A stretch of DNA of 64,000 nt. It comes from Muribaculaceae bacterium. GTDB lineage: Bacteria > Bacteroidota > Bacteroidia > Bacteroidales > Muribaculaceae. The stretch covers positions 1-64,000 of the forward strand of contig JAIDQZ010000018.1 in assembly GCA_029062005.1 (NCBI GenBank), in the 5' to 3' direction. A program made the position numbers and the translations under genes. Below are positions 6,396 to 32,075 of this stretch, piece after piece (the first letter of the stretch is position 1; every line of letters starts with the position of its first letter). The notes under the pieces are model-generated. The model was not told where the DNA came from, searched no databases, and worked only from the letters and a program-made list of their open reading frames with translations.

Positions 6396-8813
6396 TTAAA
6401 TTGGATTTTCCGGCCAGCTGTGTTTTGGATACCGGCGGCGTAGTTCTTTGCGCACCTCGAAATATGTCTCCCGCCAGAAGCCTTCCATGTCCTGGGTAAG
6501 CTGTACCGGCTTGAAACCTGGAGACAACAGTTCCATTAACACCTGACGCCTGCCTTCATCCACAGTAGGTGTCTTCATCATTCCGAAACATTCCTGAAGC
6601 CTGACACTGACTACCGGAGCTTCTGCACCACGCCTGTAATGGATACGCACATTGCGTCCGGAAGGCAGTTTCAGATTTTCAGGCACTATCCTGTCAAGTG
6701 CCTGCTGCTGCTCATAGTTCAATAATCCAAGAATCACATCCTGCATATTGATTTTTCGCAGTTCCTGAACTGTTGAAGCATTTCCGATATACATCGGAAG
6801 CCATTCAGCGGCAGAGGCAAGTACACTTTTTGTAGAGACATCAGGCAATTCGAGCTCCGGATGCCAGGATGCGGCAACAGTAATCCTGAGTTGCAATCCT
6901 CTCACTACATCATTGAAATCAAACATTGTCAGACCCTCCTTGGATGCCGCGTCAGCTATAACAGCTGTTATCGCTCCACGCACATCTCCCTTCGCGGAAC
7001 GGGCAGCCAAAACAAGGCATCCCAGCCGCAATTCTTCCCTGATCACGACTTTTCCTTCACGATTGTTCCATAAGGCACATTCCGACCATTTTCCCTTAGA
7101 CATTACAAAATCCCTGTCTAAAGGAGCAGCAAGAAATATGCGTGAACCCATGGATGCGACTGCGAGAAACTCATTGCGTGCAAGATCATCCGACGGGTGC
7201 AATGAGACAGGACCGGCTCCCGCAGCCAGCCTGTATTTGCCATTTTCATCACGCATGCATATCCGCTCAGGATATGCCATGGCTACAAGACTGCCTATAT
7301 CTTCAGAAGTCGGAATGAACGCAACTTGCGATACTTTGACAAGCCGGCGGTATTGGGCGGAAATACTGTCAATTTTCTTCCATTGCGGAGGCATGTTTCC
7401 TTTTCGATACTCGTGCAACATCATAATACGCGATGACAGGTCGGCATCCGTCTCATCCTGATATGGATCCCTTTCTTCCAACAAAGCTGCCACATCACAT
7501 GCCGCTGCTTTCATAGCTCCTGCTTCAGTCAGCATGCTTGCTATTCTCGGATTGCATGGCAGCTGAGCTATAAGTTTTCCTTTTTCCGTAAGTCTGCCGG
7601 AATCATCTGTAGCGCCCAAAACATCCAGAATATTTCGTGCGTTAGAAATGTGTCCTGATGGGGGAGGGGTGATCCATGGCAGACGTTTGGGATCCGTTTC
7701 TCCCCAGGCTGAAGTAATCAATAACATTGAAGAAAGATCAGACGATTCAATTTCCGGTTGTCGACATTCCTTCATCCTTGACTCTGTAGCTTTTGTCCAT
7801 AACCGGTAGCATATGCCCGGCATCTGTCGCCCCGCACGTCCGGTTCTCTGTTCCGCCATATCCATAGAAATCCTTACGGTAGCCAGTCTGCTCATGCCTG
7901 TAAGAGGTTCAAATACCGGCGTCTTGTAAAGGCCGGAATCAATTACGACCGATATTCCGTCAATGGTCAGCGAGGTCTCTGCAATGGGCGACGCAAGCAC
8001 AACCCTACGCTTTCCACCTGCAATTGACGACATAACAATCTGTTGTTTTTCATGCGACAACATTCCATACAATGTCTGGATCTCCACATTTTCAATTGTT
8101 TCTCCGAGCATATCACTACATTTCAGGATCTCAGCTTGTCCCGGAAGGAAAGCGAGGATATTGCCATCATGTTCACGCAGAGCCTTTCTGACCGCATTTG
8201 CCACAGATTTAGCACATTCATGGAAATTGAAATCTTCACCGTAGACTATCTTTACATCATAGCATTTTCCTTGACTGTGCAGATATCTTGCATCTAACTT
8301 TTTTGCAAGTGCGACGCCATCTATTGTTGCAGACATCACGAGGATCTTAAGATCAGGGCGTATTACGTTCTGTATCTCCCGAGTGAGAGCAAGTGTGAGA
8401 TCAGAACTTAGGCCCCTTTCGTGGAACTCATCAAAAATAACTGCAGCCACGTCTTCCAATGTCGGATCATCGATCAGCATACGTTCAAGAATTCCTTCCG
8501 TGATTACCTCTATACGTGTGGCTTTTGATACTTTTGTGTCAAAACGGACGCGATATCCGACAGTGGCTCCTATGTCTTCTCCCAACATCGATGCCATGCG
8601 TTCAGCCACCTGACGTGCGGCTATCCTTCTCGGCTCAAGCATCAGTATTTTTCCTTCAGAAAGACATTCAAGGATAGAAAGCGGTAGAAGCGTTGATTTG
8701 CCGGCTCCTGGAGGCGCTGTCACCACAAGACGAGGATGTGTGTCAAGCGATGTATTTACATCATCAGCGATAGCAGAGACGGGCAAATGGTTGAATTTAT
8801 TTTGTATTCTCAT
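6396..8813 (-). CDS. hrpB: ATP-dependent helicase HrpB
   Basis: An 805-residue DEAH-box (DExH) helicase matching HrpB in length and order. Walker A is APPGAGKST, motif II is IFDEFHERG (DEFH), motif III is SATIDG and motif VI is EQRTGRAGRQMPG. A helicase-associated domain and the C-terminal HrpB-specific region (ending RRRYPKHSWP) follow. It is cytoplasmic; its precise substrate is unclear, with RNA metabolism assumed for the family. I use ATG 8813 (MRIQNKFNHLP). The 31 residues in the longer frame from 8906 overlap the promoter region and look like translated leader. It is divergent from the AAA ATPase gene. Confidence 0.9.
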   Translation of the reverse strand: MRIQNKFNHLPVSAIADDVNTSLDTHPRLVVTAPPGAGKSTLLPLSILECLSEGKILMLEPRRIAARQVAERMASMLGEDIGATVGYRVRFDTKVSKATRIEVITEGILERMLIDDPTLEDVAAVIFDEFHERGLSSDLTLALTREIQNVIRPDLKILVMSATIDGVALAKKLDARYLHSQGKCYDVKIVYGEDFNFHECAKSVANAVRKALREHDGNILAFLPGQAEILKCSDMLGETIENVEIQTLYGMLSHEKQQIVMSSIAGGKRRVVLASPIAETSLTIDGISVVIDSGLYKTPVFEPLTGMSRLATVRISMDMAEQRTGRAGRQMPGICYRLWTKATESRMKECRQPEIESSDLSSMLLITSAWGETDPKRLPWITPPPSGHISNARNILDVLGATDDSGRLTEKGKLIAQLPCNPRIASMLTEAGAMKAAACDVAALLEERDPYQDETDADLSSRIMMLHEYRKGNMPPQWKKIDSISAQYRRLVKVSQVAFIPTSEDIGSLVAMAYPERICMRDENGKYRLAAGAGPVSLHPSDDLARNEFLAVASMGSRIFLAAPLDRDFVMSKGKWSECALWNNREGKVVIREELRLGCLVLAARSAKGDVRGAITAVIADAASKEGLTMFDFNDVVRGLQLRITVAASWHPELELPDVSTKSVLASAAEWLPMYIGNASTVQELRKINMQDVILGLLNYEQQQALDRIVPENLKLPSGRNVRIHYRRGAEAPVVSVRLQECFGMMKTPTVDEGRRQVLMELLSPGFKPVQLTQDMEGFWRETYFEVRKELRRRYPKHSWPENPI

Positions 8814-21616: not shown

Positions 21617-21710
21617 AGATGTTTAGATTATAATAGGTTAGTCTTTATCTGAATAAGATCTTGCAATATATACTTTTGGTAAGTATTCACGCAAATAGTC
21701 TTTTAATTTA

Positions 21711-21784: not shown

Positions 21785-21816
21785 TTTTGTAATGTCGTAA
21801 AAAAATGATAATTTTG
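21785..21816 (+). promoter_or_regulatory. Promoter of the recombinase-NusG fusion gene
   Basis: TTTTG at 21785-21789 and perfect TAATTTTG at 21809-21816, 19 bp apart. The start codon is 46 bp further on, so the gene has its own strong-looking promoter. Confidence 0.7.
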
Positions 21817-21862: not shown

Positions 21863-23314
21863 ATGCAGCCTGAATTTGACTCTTCAGAAACAGAAATATC
21901 AGAACAGACAGACTCCGGATTTATAGGATTTCTTGAAAGAATTCCGCATGACGGCCTTTCGGATTTACTTGTATCAAGAGTGATCCCGTCCATTCTTCGC
22001 TCCATGAGGATACACAGATTCCCTGATTTTACCGAAGAGTCCCTAAAATATTGGGTTGCAGATATGATTTTGGACAGACTTAAGGGAAGTACTGTCAAAC
22101 GCTATGTAGGCGCACTCCATACTCTTTATAGAAACTGGCATTACAACAGCAGGAATGAATCAGAAGAGATTGACTTTTCCATATCACAGGATATCTTCAA
22201 CAGCAATAATGGGAAAAGGCTTGCAGAAATTGAGGACAATCTGAAGGCATCAGAGAAACTGGCAAAGTTATCCATTAAGCAGGACTCGCCTGCATATGTA
22301 TATAACCGGGCGTTTTTTTATCTTCTCTTTAATCCCTCAGCGTCTTTCAATGATATTCTCACGCTGAAATTTTCCGATAATATTCCCTCATGTCCGCACC
22401 TGGAAGATATTGTCACTTCATTGCGAAACGCACCTCAGGCAAAATATGTATTTCAGCTTCAACAAGGCAAGAGAAGGAATGGTGCAATCATAAAGGATCT
22501 TATTTCCGAACTTCATGCCACTGCAAGAAGAGCCGGCATTAAATCAGGTGATAGATTCTCAAGAGAATCCATCACTTCAATTTGGATAGCAGCAGCAATC
22601 AAAGAAGATATTCCTCTGTCTGAGATAAGGGCGATGATTCCTGTTATGCCTGAAGAGTATTTTTTTCTTTCCATTATTCCTGTATCTGAAATATCTGATT
22701 CCCGTAAAGCGGAAATAATGAACACAGTCGCCTATGCACTGACAAATAAGAATCCCGGTTGGTTTGTGCTCAGGCTGAGAAACGGAGTTTCTCCTGAAAG
22801 GATCAAAGAACGTTTAAAGGAAAAGGAGAGTCCGCTTCAGCGACAGATCAAGTATTACTACCCCTTGCGGGTGACGAAGAAACTGGAGAAGAAGAGAGTT
22901 GTCACTATAGAAACTCCTGTAATTCCTGGAGTCTTGTTTTTTAGATTGCCCAATGACAGGGTGACATCTCTGATGAGCATAATAGGGGATATGGCTTGGT
23001 GCTATCGCACTACGGCAAATCCGTCGAGTCCATACTCAGTGATCCCACAAAAGGAGATGAAGATATTTCAAAAAAGTGTAGGAGCTTTTACCGTTGATGT
23101 TGAAATGGACATTATCTCTGAATTGCCATCCTTGCAGATAGGAGACAAAGTCATTATTGAAGACGGATCTTCACTTGACGGTCAGACGGCTACCATAAGA
23201 AAAGTGCAGAATATGGACGGGACAATAACTTATACACTTCGTCTCTCCGACTCGGAGTACATCAGATGGAAAGATATCCGGCTGCCAGGATCACATCTTG
23301 CGAAAGCCGACTGA
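21863..23314 (+). CDS. Degenerate tyrosine-recombinase-like region fused to NusG-type NGN-KOW module
   Basis: A 483-residue protein. Residues about 20-95 resemble the SAM-like core-binding domain of tyrosine recombinases (STVKRYVGALHTLYRNW). Residues about 140-290 resemble their catalytic domain, but the first arginine position reads LFNPSASFNDILTL and the HxxR region reads ESITSIWIAAAI. The key basic residues are missing, so no strand cleavage is expected. Residues about 298-405 are an NGN domain (PGWFVLRLRNGVSPERI, TPVIPGVLFFRL, VIPQKEM), and 423-472 a KOW segment (LQIGDKVIIEDGSSLDGQTATI). I infer a specialised NusG/UpxY-like elongation factor carrying a DNA-binding arm. It is monocistronic between pectin-use genes; no target operon is evident. 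Confidence 0.7.
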   Translation: MQPEFDSSETEISEQTDSGFIGFLERIPHDGLSDLLVSRVIPSILRSMRIHRFPDFTEESLKYWVADMILDRLKGSTVKRYVGALHTLYRNWHYNSRNESEEIDFSISQDIFNSNNGKRLAEIEDNLKASEKLAKLSIKQDSPAYVYNRAFFYLLFNPSASFNDILTLKFSDNIPSCPHLEDIVTSLRNAPQAKYVFQLQQGKRRNGAIIKDLISELHATARRAGIKSGDRFSRESITSIWIAAAIKEDIPLSEIRAMIPVMPEEYFFLSIIPVSEISDSRKAEIMNTVAYALTNKNPGWFVLRLRNGVSPERIKERLKEKESPLQRQIKYYYPLRVTKKLEKKRVVTIETPVIPGVLFFRLPNDRVTSLMSIIGDMAWCYRTTANPSSPYSVIPQKEMKIFQKSVGAFTVDVEMDIISELPSLQIGDKVIIEDGSSLDGQTATIRKVQNMDGTITYTLRLSDSEYIRWKDIRLPGSHLAKAD

Positions 23315-23329
23315 TATTTGTTTATATAT

Positions 23330-23366
23330 GAATGACCCCGGACAACCAACTGTCCCGGGGTCATTC
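23330..23366. terminator. Terminator between the NusG fusion and GH105 genes
   Basis: GAATGACCCCGG (23330-23341) pairs perfectly with CCGGGGTCATTC (23355-23366) around a 13-base loop. It lies between convergent genes and should serve both. Confidence 0.75.
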
Positions 23367-23395
23367 ATCTTAATTATTAGTATAATTCAATAGAT

Positions 23396-27375: not shown

Positions 27376-29514
27376 TCATGGAAGGGGTTTTATTCCTTCC
27401 CAACGCACATCCCATGTTCCATCTTTTGGGAAACCAGGATTTTCGATTTCACATCCGTCCCAGCCGGCAGTCATAAGTGCTATAGCTGTCAGCAGACCGC
27501 CATTGCCGGGAAGATAACACCTAAGCCTGTTGTCCTGAAAATTATGACCGTTAGGGAGATAAGTGTTGGTTCTCTTATCCATCAACAGAGCATTGACCGC
27601 CTTCTCCGGTTCACCGATCCTGACAGCGCACATGGCAGTGGTGGGGTAGTCCCAGCCCCACGTCTTGTCCCAATTCCAGTTGTCATATATCCAATCAAAA
27701 GTGTTGTTGAGAATTTTCGGATCTGCAAGAGGAGAAGCAGGAAGGATACCGAGTGATCCAAGAACTGCCATATGGTCAGAAGTGAAACGCACGTCCTCGT
27801 AAGTCTGAGGAGCTGTCTCCGCAGCCAGATAAAGTGAATCCTTAGCTGCGAGATGTGACAGTCCATTAGAAATCTCATCCCATTCAGGATTTCTTTCAAG
27901 CCCCATCCTCTCGCGCCATTTCTGTGCGGTATTGAGTCCAAAATGCCAATACGACAGTTCAAAAGGAGGATTCACCGTTTCCGCGGCCCGAAGGGTCTCC
28001 TGTGCAGGAATGATACCTTTAAGGATATATCTGTCGTTTTCATCATCCCTGTCAGCGAAAGAAGCCATAAATTCAGCTGTCTTTTCGATAAGAGGATAAT
28101 ATTTGTGAAGGACAGCCGTGTCGGGATTTGCACGATATAACAATTCTGCCAGATATATGATATGAGGCTGCTGCCAGATGAGGAATGATCCGACACCTGA
28201 AGGCGCTTCGATTGAAGAAGGATCAGTCATTTTCATCCACCTGACTCCTTTGAAACCCTGCCTGTCTGCGATTGACTTTGCATTAGCTTCTGCTTTCTCA
28301 TACCATGGAAGTGTGCGTCCAAGCAGATCCTCATGACCGTAAAGTGCAAATTGAGCCTGATGCCACCATATCATCTCAAGGTGGAATTTGCCAAACCATG
28401 AATTGTAAGTCAATCCGGTCTCCTGAGGAGGCGTATCACCTGCACAATTGACAGCGAGAAGATATTGTGACAAAACGACCCTTCGCTCAAGTTCCGGAGC
28501 CCTGGGATCTGTACAGTAGCTGAAATCCACGACTCCACCTTCCTTCCAGAAATTCTGCCAATATTTACTTGCTTCAGCTATAATAGAGTTTGCCCCCGGA
28601 TTTGCGCCCTCGGTCATATCTGCCGTAAACTGAGCTGTAAAGCTCCATTTATCAGCATCAGGAGAAATTATATATGTATGTCCTTCTCCTTTAGTCATCT
28701 CGGTCTTACCATCCCAATTCAGAGTAATGAAATAAGAGGTCGAGTCCAAAGAATGCCTGACAATTGCTTTTCCCGGTGCCGACATCACAATCTCAGACAC
28801 ATGAAGTGAATCTGCATCCCAGTCACAAGCATCGTCGCTATGCTTTCCGGTAGGATAGGGGAGACGCAAGGCAATGGAATGGCGTGACGGATCAGAAATC
28901 CTGGCAGCAACAATATCAAGTTCGGGATCTACGGATGTCTGCACTTCGACATTAGAGCCATCTGTCGCGAATTTTGAATTTATGACACCGTTCCACATAT
29001 CGAGAGTCTGATCGATATCTGATATCGCATCTATATCAAGATCATGGAAACCTATGGCGCCGAGGTGAAGTCTGTGTGGATTTACACGAAAATAGTTGGC
29101 AGCGTCTTTATTTCTGCCGTCTTCCTTGAACTGAACTGAATATAGCTCCTGTCTGCCACGACCGAAATCATATTCCTTCAGGGTCTCCTCAAACTTATAG
29201 TCCTCCTTATTGGGAAAACTATGCCATCCCCAGTCGCTCATGGTTCCGAGAGGAACACCTGCTGAATATATCTCGGGGAATGTCTGGAGTCCTGTAATAT
29301 CAGCTGTAAAAGCGAACCGCCCGTTGCCGACGGTGAGAGATGCCATGGTGTCGACAGAAGTCACATGCGGATTATTGCGCGCCACAAGGGCATATCTGTC
29401 GATCTTTTCTGTATTGGATGTGCACCCGGATATGACTGCCGCCGCAACGATTAAATTCGTCGCGACGACAGCAATATAGTTCGGCATGCAAATTGAATTG
29501 CAAGATGTTTTCAT
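27376..29514 (-). CDS. Six-hairpin glycosidase-like lipoprotein of the pectin operon
   Basis: A 712-residue protein with a lipobox-like VISGC after an N-terminal hydrophobic stretch, so probably membrane-anchored. An N-terminal beta-sandwich (to about 290) precedes an (alpha/alpha)6 barrel, the layout of GH65/GH95-like enzymes. Conserved-looking barrel segments are LTYNSWFGKFHLEMIWWHQAQFAL, where a catalytic acid may be, and NWDKTWGWDYPTTAM. I cannot assign a GH family. Position between the GH28-GH105 and GH106 genes, with a 4-base ATGA overlap to the former, argues for a role in trimming rhamnogalacturonan side chains or backbone fragments. A second ATG at 29487 could be the start. Confidence 0.65.
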   Translation of the reverse strand: MKTSCNSICMPNYIAVVATNLIVAAAVISGCTSNTEKIDRYALVARNNPHVTSVDTMASLTVGNGRFAFTADITGLQTFPEIYSAGVPLGTMSDWGWHSFPNKEDYKFEETLKEYDFGRGRQELYSVQFKEDGRNKDAANYFRVNPHRLHLGAIGFHDLDIDAISDIDQTLDMWNGVINSKFATDGSNVEVQTSVDPELDIVAARISDPSRHSIALRLPYPTGKHSDDACDWDADSLHVSEIVMSAPGKAIVRHSLDSTSYFITLNWDGKTEMTKGEGHTYIISPDADKWSFTAQFTADMTEGANPGANSIIAEASKYWQNFWKEGGVVDFSYCTDPRAPELERRVVLSQYLLAVNCAGDTPPQETGLTYNSWFGKFHLEMIWWHQAQFALYGHEDLLGRTLPWYEKAEANAKSIADRQGFKGVRWMKMTDPSSIEAPSGVGSFLIWQQPHIIYLAELLYRANPDTAVLHKYYPLIEKTAEFMASFADRDDENDRYILKGIIPAQETLRAAETVNPPFELSYWHFGLNTAQKWRERMGLERNPEWDEISNGLSHLAAKDSLYLAAETAPQTYEDVRFTSDHMAVLGSLGILPASPLADPKILNNTFDWIYDNWNWDKTWGWDYPTTAMCAVRIGEPEKAVNALLMDKRTNTYLPNGHNFQDNRLRCYLPGNGGLLTAIALMTAGWDGCEIENPGFPKDGTWDVRWEGIKPLP

Positions 29515-32075
29515 TTTGTCAAATTATCATATTCGAGACCGGCGAGAATGAACGGACCTACACCCTTTGCATCATTGTCACGTATCGGTTCGCTCAGATA
29601 ATATTCAAAGGTACCGTTACGACGCTGATCTTTTCCTCCGCCAAGTCCTGCAACTGCACAACAATTGGTCAGCGAGATAGTGCCGTCTTCATTTTCTTTG
29701 ATGAATGTGTCAACTATACCCTCATATCCTTTCTTAGCGGGTGCAAGATAGGATTCGTCAAGAAGTCCAAGGCGTACTGCGCGAAGTAGATTGTAGACAA
29801 ACATTGAAGAAGCAGTTGCCTCCAGATAGTTGCCTTTTCTGTTGGGCGAATCCATCACCTGATACCACACTCCTGACGCAGGATCCTGATACTTCACGAT
29901 ACCGTCGGCAACACTCTTCAGAAGAGCAAGCATTTCAGGACGCTTGGGATGATCGACGGGCATTTTCTCAAGAACATCTGTTATAGCCCATATATACCAG
30001 CCCATAGCGCGACCCCATGCATGCTGTGACTGACCTGTCTTTCTGTCAGCCCAGAACTGCTTTTTCTTTTCATCCCAGGCATGACGATAGAGACCTGTAG
30101 CAGGATCATATGTCTTTTTGCCTACGGTAATAAACTGATTGGCTATGTCATCCCAAAGCTTAGGATCAGCACCAAGGAATTTGTTGACATATTCTGCATA
30201 GAAAGGCTGACCCATATAGAGTCCGTCAAGCCACGCCTGCCATGGATAGATCTGCTTATGCCAGAAGTTCTTTGACTTAGTCCTCGGATGAGACAGCAAC
30301 TGATCATAGATGTTGTCGGCTGCTTTCTTGAAGCGTTCCTCACCTGTTATATCATATGCCTTGAGAATCTCAATGCCACCCTTGACATTATCGATATTGT
30401 ACGAATCTTTCTTGAATGCCTTGATTGTGCCATCAGGATTTACAAAGAAATCTGTGTAATTTAATGCATAGTCAAGCATTTCTTTGTCATTGTATGCCTG
30501 AGCAGCAGCGAGTATACCTTCGATCTCGACAGCAGCTGCATAGCTCCATTTCACTCCACTCACATCAAGAGTCTCGCTCTTTGGATTACGTATCATTTCA
30601 GATTTTGCCAGCTGATAGGCGAGAGGTTTGCCATACAGGCACTCAATACCATTGATCTTGAGATTATCAAAAATCACATCTTTTACTTCACCTGTGATAT
30701 TGTTGCCGTCAGCAACGCCATTGAAGTTACAGTCCTTAACTTCTATATCATAGACATTGCATTTGTCTTTCAAACCAACAATCATCACGCCATACTTGCT
30801 CTTATTGCAAGTCACGTTTTCAAGATATACGTTGCGCACTGTCGGAGGATATGCTCGTTTACATCTTTCTTTGGGTTCATAATCAAGATTGATTTTGAGT
30901 ACAGCCTCTTTACATTGACCTACTTCAACATTGCGCACATAAATATCTTCAATCACGCCTCCACGGCATGTATTGGTCTTGATACGGATCACTCGGTCAA
31001 GGTCCGGACTATCCATCTTGCAGTTTTCTACAAAAAGTGTTTTATAACCACCTGAGATTTCACTTCCAACCACTACGCCGCCATGACCATTCTTCATGTA
31101 GCAGTTACGGACTATTATGTTTTCGCTTGGGATATTTCTGGTAAGACCGTCACGGTTGCGTCCACTCTTTATAGCGATACAATCGTCGCCGGTGTCAAAA
31201 TAACAATTTTCAATAAGCACATCCTTGCATGATTCAGGATCGCATCCGTCGCCGTTAGGACCGTCGTTCTGGACATGAACGCCACGCACTGTGACATTCT
31301 GGCAGAGCAGAGGATGCATCACCCAGAATGCAGAACGAAGCATCGTCACATCCTCAATAAGGACATTCTTACATTCAACTGGATTAACAAGCTGCGGACG
31401 CATACCCCAGTTAGACCCGAGTCGACGCTCTTCAAGCTTAACTCCGTTTTCATTCCATTCCTGAAGAATGACACGTCCTGTACGCTGTGACTCCATACCG
31501 GGTTTCCAACCCCATTTATCATTACCAACCATAGCCCACCAGTTTTCACGACTTGCGCCTCCGTCAATGGTACCTTTACCGGTAATTGCTATATTCTCTT
31601 GCTTATAGGCATAGATCATCGGTGACCAGTTCCAGCACTCCATACCTTCCCATGATGTTTGAACAAGAGGATAATACTGATGAGTGTCATCTGTGAAAAG
31701 CAAGGTAGCCCCTTCTTCAAGATGAAGATTCACATTACTGAGAAGCTTGACAGGACCGGTGAGCCAGGTTCCTGCAGGGACTATGACCCGGCCGCCGCCC
31801 TCAGCACTACACTTAGCTATGGTTGAATTTATTATATCTGTATAAAGGACATTTCCATGCTTGTCTTTCTTGACATTTTTGGTACTTTTTTTCTTTCCTT
31901 TATTATCGAACTGTAAGATGTAGTCCTTGTCTCTGAAAGAGGGAGCCTTGATGCGCGACTCCACCTGGGGATAGACGTCAGCCCATGCCTTCTGAGCTCT
32001 TTCGACTATACCTTCCGCCATAGTCGAACCGATGCCTATCAGCAGGGCTGATAGAGAAATTAAAAATTTTTTCAT
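29511..32075 (-). CDS. GH28-GH105 fusion enzyme
   Basis: An 854-residue exported protein joining two pectin activities. Residues 1-20 are a signal peptide. Residues about 30-485 are a GH28 beta-helix with all family landmarks: NGDGCD, TGDDCIAIKSG, NGHGGVVVGSE and RVIRIKT. Residues about 495-854 are a GH105 barrel with YPWQAWLDGLYMGQPF (catalytic aspartate) and HAWGRAMGWYIW. GH28 would release galacturonate hydrolytically, and GH105 would remove unsaturated galacturonate left by lyases. Having both on one chain suits mixed lyase and hydrolase products in the periplasm. It is 5 bp from the CE12-GH28 gene and overlaps the next gene by 4 bases. Confidence 0.9.
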   Translation of the reverse strand: MKKFLISLSALLIGIGSTMAEGIVERAQKAWADVYPQVESRIKAPSFRDKDYILQFDNKGKKKSTKNVKKDKHGNVLYTDIINSTIAKCSAEGGGRVIVPAGTWLTGPVKLLSNVNLHLEEGATLLFTDDTHQYYPLVQTSWEGMECWNWSPMIYAYKQENIAITGKGTIDGGASRENWWAMVGNDKWGWKPGMESQRTGRVILQEWNENGVKLEERRLGSNWGMRPQLVNPVECKNVLIEDVTMLRSAFWVMHPLLCQNVTVRGVHVQNDGPNGDGCDPESCKDVLIENCYFDTGDDCIAIKSGRNRDGLTRNIPSENIIVRNCYMKNGHGGVVVGSEISGGYKTLFVENCKMDSPDLDRVIRIKTNTCRGGVIEDIYVRNVEVGQCKEAVLKINLDYEPKERCKRAYPPTVRNVYLENVTCNKSKYGVMIVGLKDKCNVYDIEVKDCNFNGVADGNNITGEVKDVIFDNLKINGIECLYGKPLAYQLAKSEMIRNPKSETLDVSGVKWSYAAAVEIEGILAAAQAYNDKEMLDYALNYTDFFVNPDGTIKAFKKDSYNIDNVKGGIEILKAYDITGEERFKKAADNIYDQLLSHPRTKSKNFWHKQIYPWQAWLDGLYMGQPFYAEYVNKFLGADPKLWDDIANQFITVGKKTYDPATGLYRHAWDEKKKQFWADRKTGQSQHAWGRAMGWYIWAITDVLEKMPVDHPKRPEMLALLKSVADGIVKYQDPASGVWYQVMDSPNRKGNYLEATASSMFVYNLLRAVRLGLLDESYLAPAKKGYEGIVDTFIKENEDGTISLTNCCAVAGLGGGKDQRRNGTFEYYLSEPIRDNDAKGVGPFILAGLEYDNLTK

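Follow-up and report, generated by a model that had tools for sequence, protein, structure and literature searches.

What does a recombinase-type domain do in a protein that also carries a transcription elongation module? The question is raised by a gene in the 64,000-nt stretch analyzed here (hereafter the window; positions 1 to 64,000 of contig JAIDQZ010000018.1, assembly GCA_029062005.1, from a Muribaculaceae bacterium). The gene lies at 21863..23314 on the + strand and encodes one 483-aa protein, as judged from its reading frame and from intact relatives. The first-pass annotation had described the product as a catalytically dead recombinase-like half joined to a NusG-type NGN-KOW half, and both parts of that description were borne out. 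The explanation that we favor, and hold to be probable, is that a dead recombinase was domesticated as part of a UpxY-type NusG paralogue; fusions at the heads of operons would antiterminate those operons, and the clade of the window gene would act in trans. The architecture, the catalytic loss, the recurrence in the family, the usual polysaccharide-type context and the detachment of the window's clade are all sequence-based.

Architecture and flanking signals of the window gene

Four domains were delimited, all on the + strand. A core-binding (SAM-like) domain (ca. residues 20-100; 21920..22162) was located by profiles and the structure model, and a catalytic-type recombinase domain devoid of catalytic residues (ca. 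residues 141-275; 22283..22687) was located by profiles, residue columns and the model. The second half comprises an NGN domain (ca. residues 298-409; 22754..23089) and a KOW domain (ca. residues 421-483; 23123..23311), both found by profile and structure model. The UpxY model NF033644 scored 59.9 bits on the protein (62.6 in the genome search), below its curated cut-off of 100. When compared by profile with four intact relatives, the recombinase half was matched with a probability of 98.9 and an E-value of 1.6e-17. Matches of the structure model agree with a recombinase fold, subject to the tool's own caution on helical folds. The KOW domain was modeled in a beta form, which would be compatible with a fold switch. 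A HEPN match (PF18736, residues 261-332, E = 0.0015) was taken as chance because its 18.7 bits fell under the cut-off of 26.6, it appeared in 1 of 19 relatives, and it straddles two domains.

The gene is monocistronic by gene layout. A fixed promoter (TTTG-N19-TAATTTTG; 21786..21816, + strand) with a short leader precedes it and is kept in 8 of the 9 testable loci of its own clade (the orphans, described below), in agreement with the earlier statement that the gene has its own promoter. The terminator postulated with it was found in part: a terminator-type hairpin (23328..23368, no strand assigned) separates the fusion gene from the GH88 gene that converges on it, and a pattern search 3' of the fusion gene for a hairpin with a T-run gave no match. 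Two other features of the window were recorded. A palindrome (ATACTT-N5-AAGTAT, 21670-21686) is located 5' of the promoter and is not conserved by the orthologues, and a single gene at 29511-32075 combines a GH28 polygalacturonase-type domain with a GH88-type domain.

The intact comparison set consisted of four recombinases, i.e. those just upstream of the fusions in loci L079 and L080 and two encoded at other places in the window's genome. All four keep Arg, Lys, Arg, His and Tyr. In the window protein, Arg-I is replaced by P158, Arg-II by T238, His by V261 and Tyr by S270, and the hairpin bearing the catalytic Lys is missing; by alignment, its catalytic set is lost. The W of the intact ARHSW motif is retained as W241 and is invariant in alignment A1 (19 proteins). 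For the wider family, 75 loci were reduced to 53 unique proteins by dropping those of <430 aa, those containing X, and those with identical ends; some loci from the contig collection were the same contigs as whole-genome loci. Arg is present at Arg-I in 4 of the 53 and at Arg-II in 7, the GH His is present in 8, and 51 show a gap in place of the Lys. An active integrase that carries an accessory domain, which the first-pass annotation said would be proved by homologues with an intact R-H-R-Y set, would share the recombinase-type fold. Given the lost set in the window protein and a Tyr column that is Tyr in 0 of the 53 fusions, it is refuted at the sequence level, and we accord it practically no probability. 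A natural variant of 320 aa (L023, 1069-2031) reads as a core-binding domain plus NGN-KOW, with no catalytic-type domain.

The recombinase half of the window protein has a net charge of -5; the median is -1 over all fusions and +1 over non-orphans, compared to +9 to +24 in the four intact recombinases minus their first 100 residues. Orphan halves are more acidic than non-orphan ones (p = 2e-4, the orphans being one clade).

Distribution, neighborhoods and likely origin of the fusion

Matches were obtained in 29 of 149 genomes of the window's bacterial family, its own included. In five of these (G009, G017, G021, G068 and G104) the matches were lone UpxY-size frames of 187-216 aa only, leaving fusions in 24 of 149; among the 24, that of L023 lacks the catalytic-type part by reading, and that of L018 is partly masked. 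In the genus, 44 of 101 genomes matched, G163 and G172 by short frames only. In the order, 81 of 393 genomes matched at E 1e-8, with up to four candidates per genome scored; at that depth, no full-length fusion was found outside the window's genome, and in other order genomes the two halves matched separate frames. Misses are possible in this search because of the limit of four candidates. One contig with a fusion (L130) was deposited under the name Alistipes, which belongs to another family, and confinement of the fusion to one family is thus not certain. A member is also present in the cultured Duncaniella muris DSM 103720 (L126, on NZ_PUEC01000057.1). Viral contigs yielded 10 pattern stretches and 0 relatives.

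Neighborhoods were read in 40 fetched loci and the window. Genes were called by a simple script, and clusters were named as polysaccharide-type from one or a few scanned members. On these terms, polysaccharide-type genes in the same orientation follow 25 of the 31 non-orphan fusions at a distance of no more than seven genes, and none of the 10 orphan loci shows this; five of the remaining six non-orphans (L063, L066, L079, L080 and L090) lie near contig ends. The earlier claim that the gene controls nothing obvious in cis thus describes the window copy and its clade, and not the family. Representatives of the downstream clusters match flippase, MatE, FrhB, pyruvyl transferase, LicD, nucleotidyl transferase and UDP-sugar dehydrogenase or epimerase families, the MatE match (a cluster of 493-518 aa) being under Pfam's cut-off.

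UpxZ proteins restrain other UpxY proteins. No UpxZ match was found among the downstream genes scanned. In seven loci (L062, 10194-11075; L063, 2005-2751; L064, 1770-2519; L067; L073; L076; L083) the first gene 3' of the fusion, where upxZ would be, encodes an unnamed protein of 234-293 aa. Six scanned members of this protein family had no significant match in Pfam or NCBIfam. Standing where UpxZ would, it may be a partner or an antagonist of the fusion.

Pairing of invertase and upxY genes has been reported for Bacteroidales capsule loci (accessible part of PMC12118408). Six loci of other families were read, four of which (L156-L159) had been picked for the closeness of the two matches. In those four, a recombinase gene (402-411 aa) is separated by 405-928 bp from an upxY gene (159-182 aa) downstream on the same strand, and genes reading like polysaccharide genes come next. 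In L161 no recombinase adjoins upxY, and L160 has a contig end there. Since the two genes can adjoin in Bacteroidales polysaccharide loci, their fusion is the simplest, and a likely, origin: an invertase gene directly upstream of upxY would have joined it. The Bacteroidales invertases upstream of CPS operons, which are separate genes and have an intact catalytic set in the four compared, are the likely parents of the N-terminal half.

A palindromic repeat (GGACGCACGG, 2-4 bases, CGTGCGTCC) was seen in frame within the gene of a paralogue from the window's own genome (contig C119). Its copies there (L087, 6661, 7429 and 8032) each read GTHGSCVR, and the same repeat occurs in a relative (L142, 1016 and 1487) and once on contig C127 of the window's genome (L109).

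Upstream regions were searched for paired sites of the form CTCTT-N3-AAGAG with complementary centers (ATCTCTT-N3-AAGAGAT), after exclusion of 8 of the 53 loci, whose upstream sequence was short or rich in N. Such pairs precede 12 of the 36 testable non-orphans and 0 of the 9 testable orphans, a contrast that is not significant (p = 0.086). As a control, 1 of 5300 shuffled upstream stretches contained a site. The strict count leaves out L081 and L067, which bear other inverted repeats. The survey of homologues that had been suggested earlier, for constant fusion and for neighboring long operons or invertible promoters, showed a recurrent fusion, polysaccharide-type genes downstream of most non-orphans, and paired sites in these 12. 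A promoter pattern (TTTG-N18-21-TANNTTTG) lies between the sites in 5 of the 12 and is absent in 7. It points toward the gene in L073 and L080 and away from it in L062, L076 and L083. Both orientations thus occur among assemblies, as expected of invertible promoters, and no single locus was seen in both. In L159, from another family of the order, an ATCTCTT-N3-AAGAGAT pair (8012-8198) lies between an intact invertase gene and an unfused upxY; paired sites are absent from that interval in L156-L158. The window gene itself has no inverton site upstream, and the motif is at chance in its genome (with one mismatch, 17 places vs. 18 for the reversed control; 0 exact).

The dead half might instead act on inversion, by forming mixed complexes with active invertases or by covering their sites; it would then set the ON/OFF ratio and couple inversion to elongation. 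The 12 site pairs, the intact invertase gene just upstream of the fusions in L079 and L080, and the pair in L159 would suit such a role. We consider it improbable, as the strict pair is absent from 24 of 36 non-orphans (of which L081 has another inverted repeat) and from all 9 testable orphans, the positive charge of the recombinase half is lost, and the motif is no more frequent in the window's genome than its control.

The lost charge and the 24 non-orphans without a strict pair likewise argue against a simple DNA recruiter. The first-pass annotation had suggested that the recombinase-derived part may be a sequence-specific DNA or RNA recruiter, or a sensor of invertible promoters. That interpretation was supported in part, namely in the fusion of a dead half to NGN-KOW, its recurrence ahead of polysaccharide-type genes, the inverton sites of the 12 loci and a leader element shared by many (see below); the charge of -5 against +9 to +24, and the retention of the domain in 24 of 36 loci that lack the pair, speak against sequence-specific recruitment to DNA or RNA. 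The half is just as likely to be a part for protein contact or for recruitment of RNA polymerase. Its most likely service is target choice or partner binding, rather than DNA cutting.

A shared leader element

In the leaders of 41 non-orphan fusions, GGGAAGA was found in 12 and GGGTCGG in 11; the maximum in 20 shuffled sets was 7. A motif of this kind, often behind a hairpin, is present in 22 of the 41 non-orphan leaders and in 0 of 12 orphan leaders (three of the latter being cut or masked). A 10-pair stem, modeled on the L079 sequence alone before it was tested, was paired in 84.1% of cells over 14 aligned leaders vs. 75.0% after shuffling (0 of 500 as high), and in 47-69% when slid by 1-3 columns. 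Seven of the 10 pairs have changed on both sides.

The model of this element, R1, was trained on 14 leaders picked for the GGG motif, which accordingly match it by construction; the held-out unique matches are seven (L078, L126, L085, L138, L071, L073 and L083). Over 66 sources (930 kb), R1 gave 24 matches at E <= 0.06, 21 of them unique, and all were on the strand of the fusion and on its 5' side. In the 149 family genomes, 10 of 13 matches (E <= 1e-3) were at fusion leaders, 3 of the 10 being held out under strict filters; the other three comprised two copies of one repeat and one match overlapping an opposite-strand gene. The model had no match at five loci of the family that hold a lone UpxY. 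Relative to the starts used for L126 and L073, which were mechanically chosen and are probably wrong, the element is at -297 to -232 and at -31 to +31, respectively. The two copies of the repeat, near-identical and in different genomes (L190, 6121-6178; L191, 7238-7295), resemble the element (25 bits), and the L190 copy is near a transposase-like fragment by reading.

By analogy, R1 may function as a hairpin in the RNA, like that of LoaP, or as a DNA signal comparable to the ops sequence of RfaH. Under the explanation favored here, a fusion at the head of an operon would bind RNA polymerase in its own leader, and the polymerase would then read through the long operon, by analogy with UpxY, the antiterminator of Bacteroides capsular polysaccharide operons, which prevents termination in its leader. 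A more specific proposal is that the dead invertase continues to recognize nucleic acid from its former locus (the inverton site or the leader hairpin) and so ties the elongation factor to the operon that its active cousin flips, the window's clade having been retargeted to a distant operon. We put this forward tentatively, as it is rather more apt to fail than to hold.

The orphan clade and its known counterparts

Together with 11 orthologues, the window gene makes up a single branch (support 100/99) nested among operon heads; in its nearest relatives (L061 and L060), flippase genes follow the fusion. The clade has no leader element and no inverton and, by gene layout, no operon. Eight of 10 orphan loci are near the same RGL11, HIT or GH88-type genes, the exceptions being L056 and L059. 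Of the 9 testable orphans, 8 have 57-77 bp between the -33 element and the start codon, as opposed to 140-269 bp in the non-orphans with a forward promoter match (15 of 36; p = 1.2e-4). At 60-68% identity, the orphan copies have open frames, except that L056 and L121 are cut by contig ends. Median dN/dS values of these copies are 0.04 over NGN-KOW, where 6 of 55 pairs are unsaturated in dS, and 0.09 over the recombinase half, where 8 are; at 0.18 (14 pairs), constraint on the core-binding part is weaker. In L052 (10011-10899), an ECF-type sigma factor gene and a small unnamed neighbor lie between the orphan fusion and pectin-type genes, and genes similar to this region occur in L051 and L057.

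With no operon in cis, the window copy could be a relic drifting toward a pseudogene. The open frames, the promoter kept in 8 of 9 loci, and the low dN/dS values of both halves, few as the unsaturated pairs are, render this very improbable. Instead, because the leader element and the operon are missing and constraint is kept, the gene should act in trans; by analogy with RfaH, action of the clade on an unlinked operon is the most likely mode.

UpxY-model matches in the window's genome were accounted for by a housekeeping-NusG-like frame (which adjoins ribosomal and rpoB-like genes; its identity is by reading), the window fusion, the C119 fusion, and a marginal match at E = 0.07; thus, no lone UpxY was found there. 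The C119 paralogue has the leader element. A search of this genome (a MAG of 152 contigs) with R1 for a target in trans returned one strong match, at that paralogue (E = 3.1e-9). The next (C84, E = 0.23) was rejected, as it is inside what reads as a peptidase-like gene on the opposite strand, and seven weaker matches had E-values of 0.6 to 9. The sister-clade leader model, R2, had no match in the same genome. Across the 11 orphan-carrying genomes, R1 matches (E <= 0.05) were found at a second fusion in three cases and otherwise only at two positions in G186 that were not accepted as targets (one inside a gene that reads as ftsA-like, one intergenic, E = 0.03).

The orphans could also be trans-acting antagonists or decoys that compete with resident fusions for RNA polymerase, in the manner of UpxZ. 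A resident fusion with the leader element is present, by R1, in 3 of 11 orphan genomes, and the clade has no operon of its own. We think this unlikely: NGN and KOW are the best-conserved part, and 8 of the 11 genomes, fragmented MAGs, have no R1 match at a second fusion.

The targeting of NusG paralogues to their own operons is understood for few, i.e. RfaH, which is recruited by ops DNA and whose KOW domain switches fold, and LoaP, which uses an RNA hairpin. The fusions resemble UpxY in their NGN-KOW module and in their usual place, behind a leader and ahead of polysaccharide-type genes; invertible promoters also occur nearby, as in Bacteroidales CPS operons (PMC12118408, in its accessible part). 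The window protein differs from UpxY in its length of 483 aa with a recombinase half, its score below the NCBIfam cut-off, and its monocistronic layout. Neither it nor its clade stands first in a surface-polysaccharide operon (0 of 10 orphan loci), and the genes scanned downstream of fusions lacked UpxZ. It shares the monocistronic layout with RfaH, from which it differs in the extra recombinase half and in phylum. LoaP, unlike the fusions, is not known to have a recombinase domain. It is an operon-specific NusG paralogue, and the leader of its target carries a small RNA hairpin (available text of PMC12691694) with which R1, a putative target of the fusions, is comparable.

Dead tyrosine recombinases with other duties have been described. 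MrpR, the SPbeta repressor, retains the fold, has lost recombination and represses by binding DNA; the available portion of that paper mentions no NusG part (PMC10516654). In TnsF of Tn6022, an inactivated tyrosine-recombinase domain chooses the site for another machine; as far as the accessible text goes, it serves transposition and has zinc fingers, unlike the fusions (PMC10293859). The lost net positive charge of the fusions speaks against DNA binding of the MrpR or TnsF type. No earlier description of a NusG/UpxY-recombinase fusion was found in a full-text literature search, which covered few subscription papers and bioRxiv preprints, and the words integrase, recombinase, fused and fusion are absent from the available main text of two papers on NusG evolution (PMC7593976, PMC7819879). 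Taken singly, the component parts are of familiar types; what appears to be new is the architecture, together with the leader element and the orphan clade.

Since most of the relatives examined precede sugar-coat genes, the fusion looks like a new design of surface-coat switch. Its recruited recombinase domain, covarying leader hairpin and partly invertible promoters make the question of targeting testable, also in the cultured Duncaniella muris. The family shows how a phase-variation enzyme may become an elongation regulator of bacterial surface coats.
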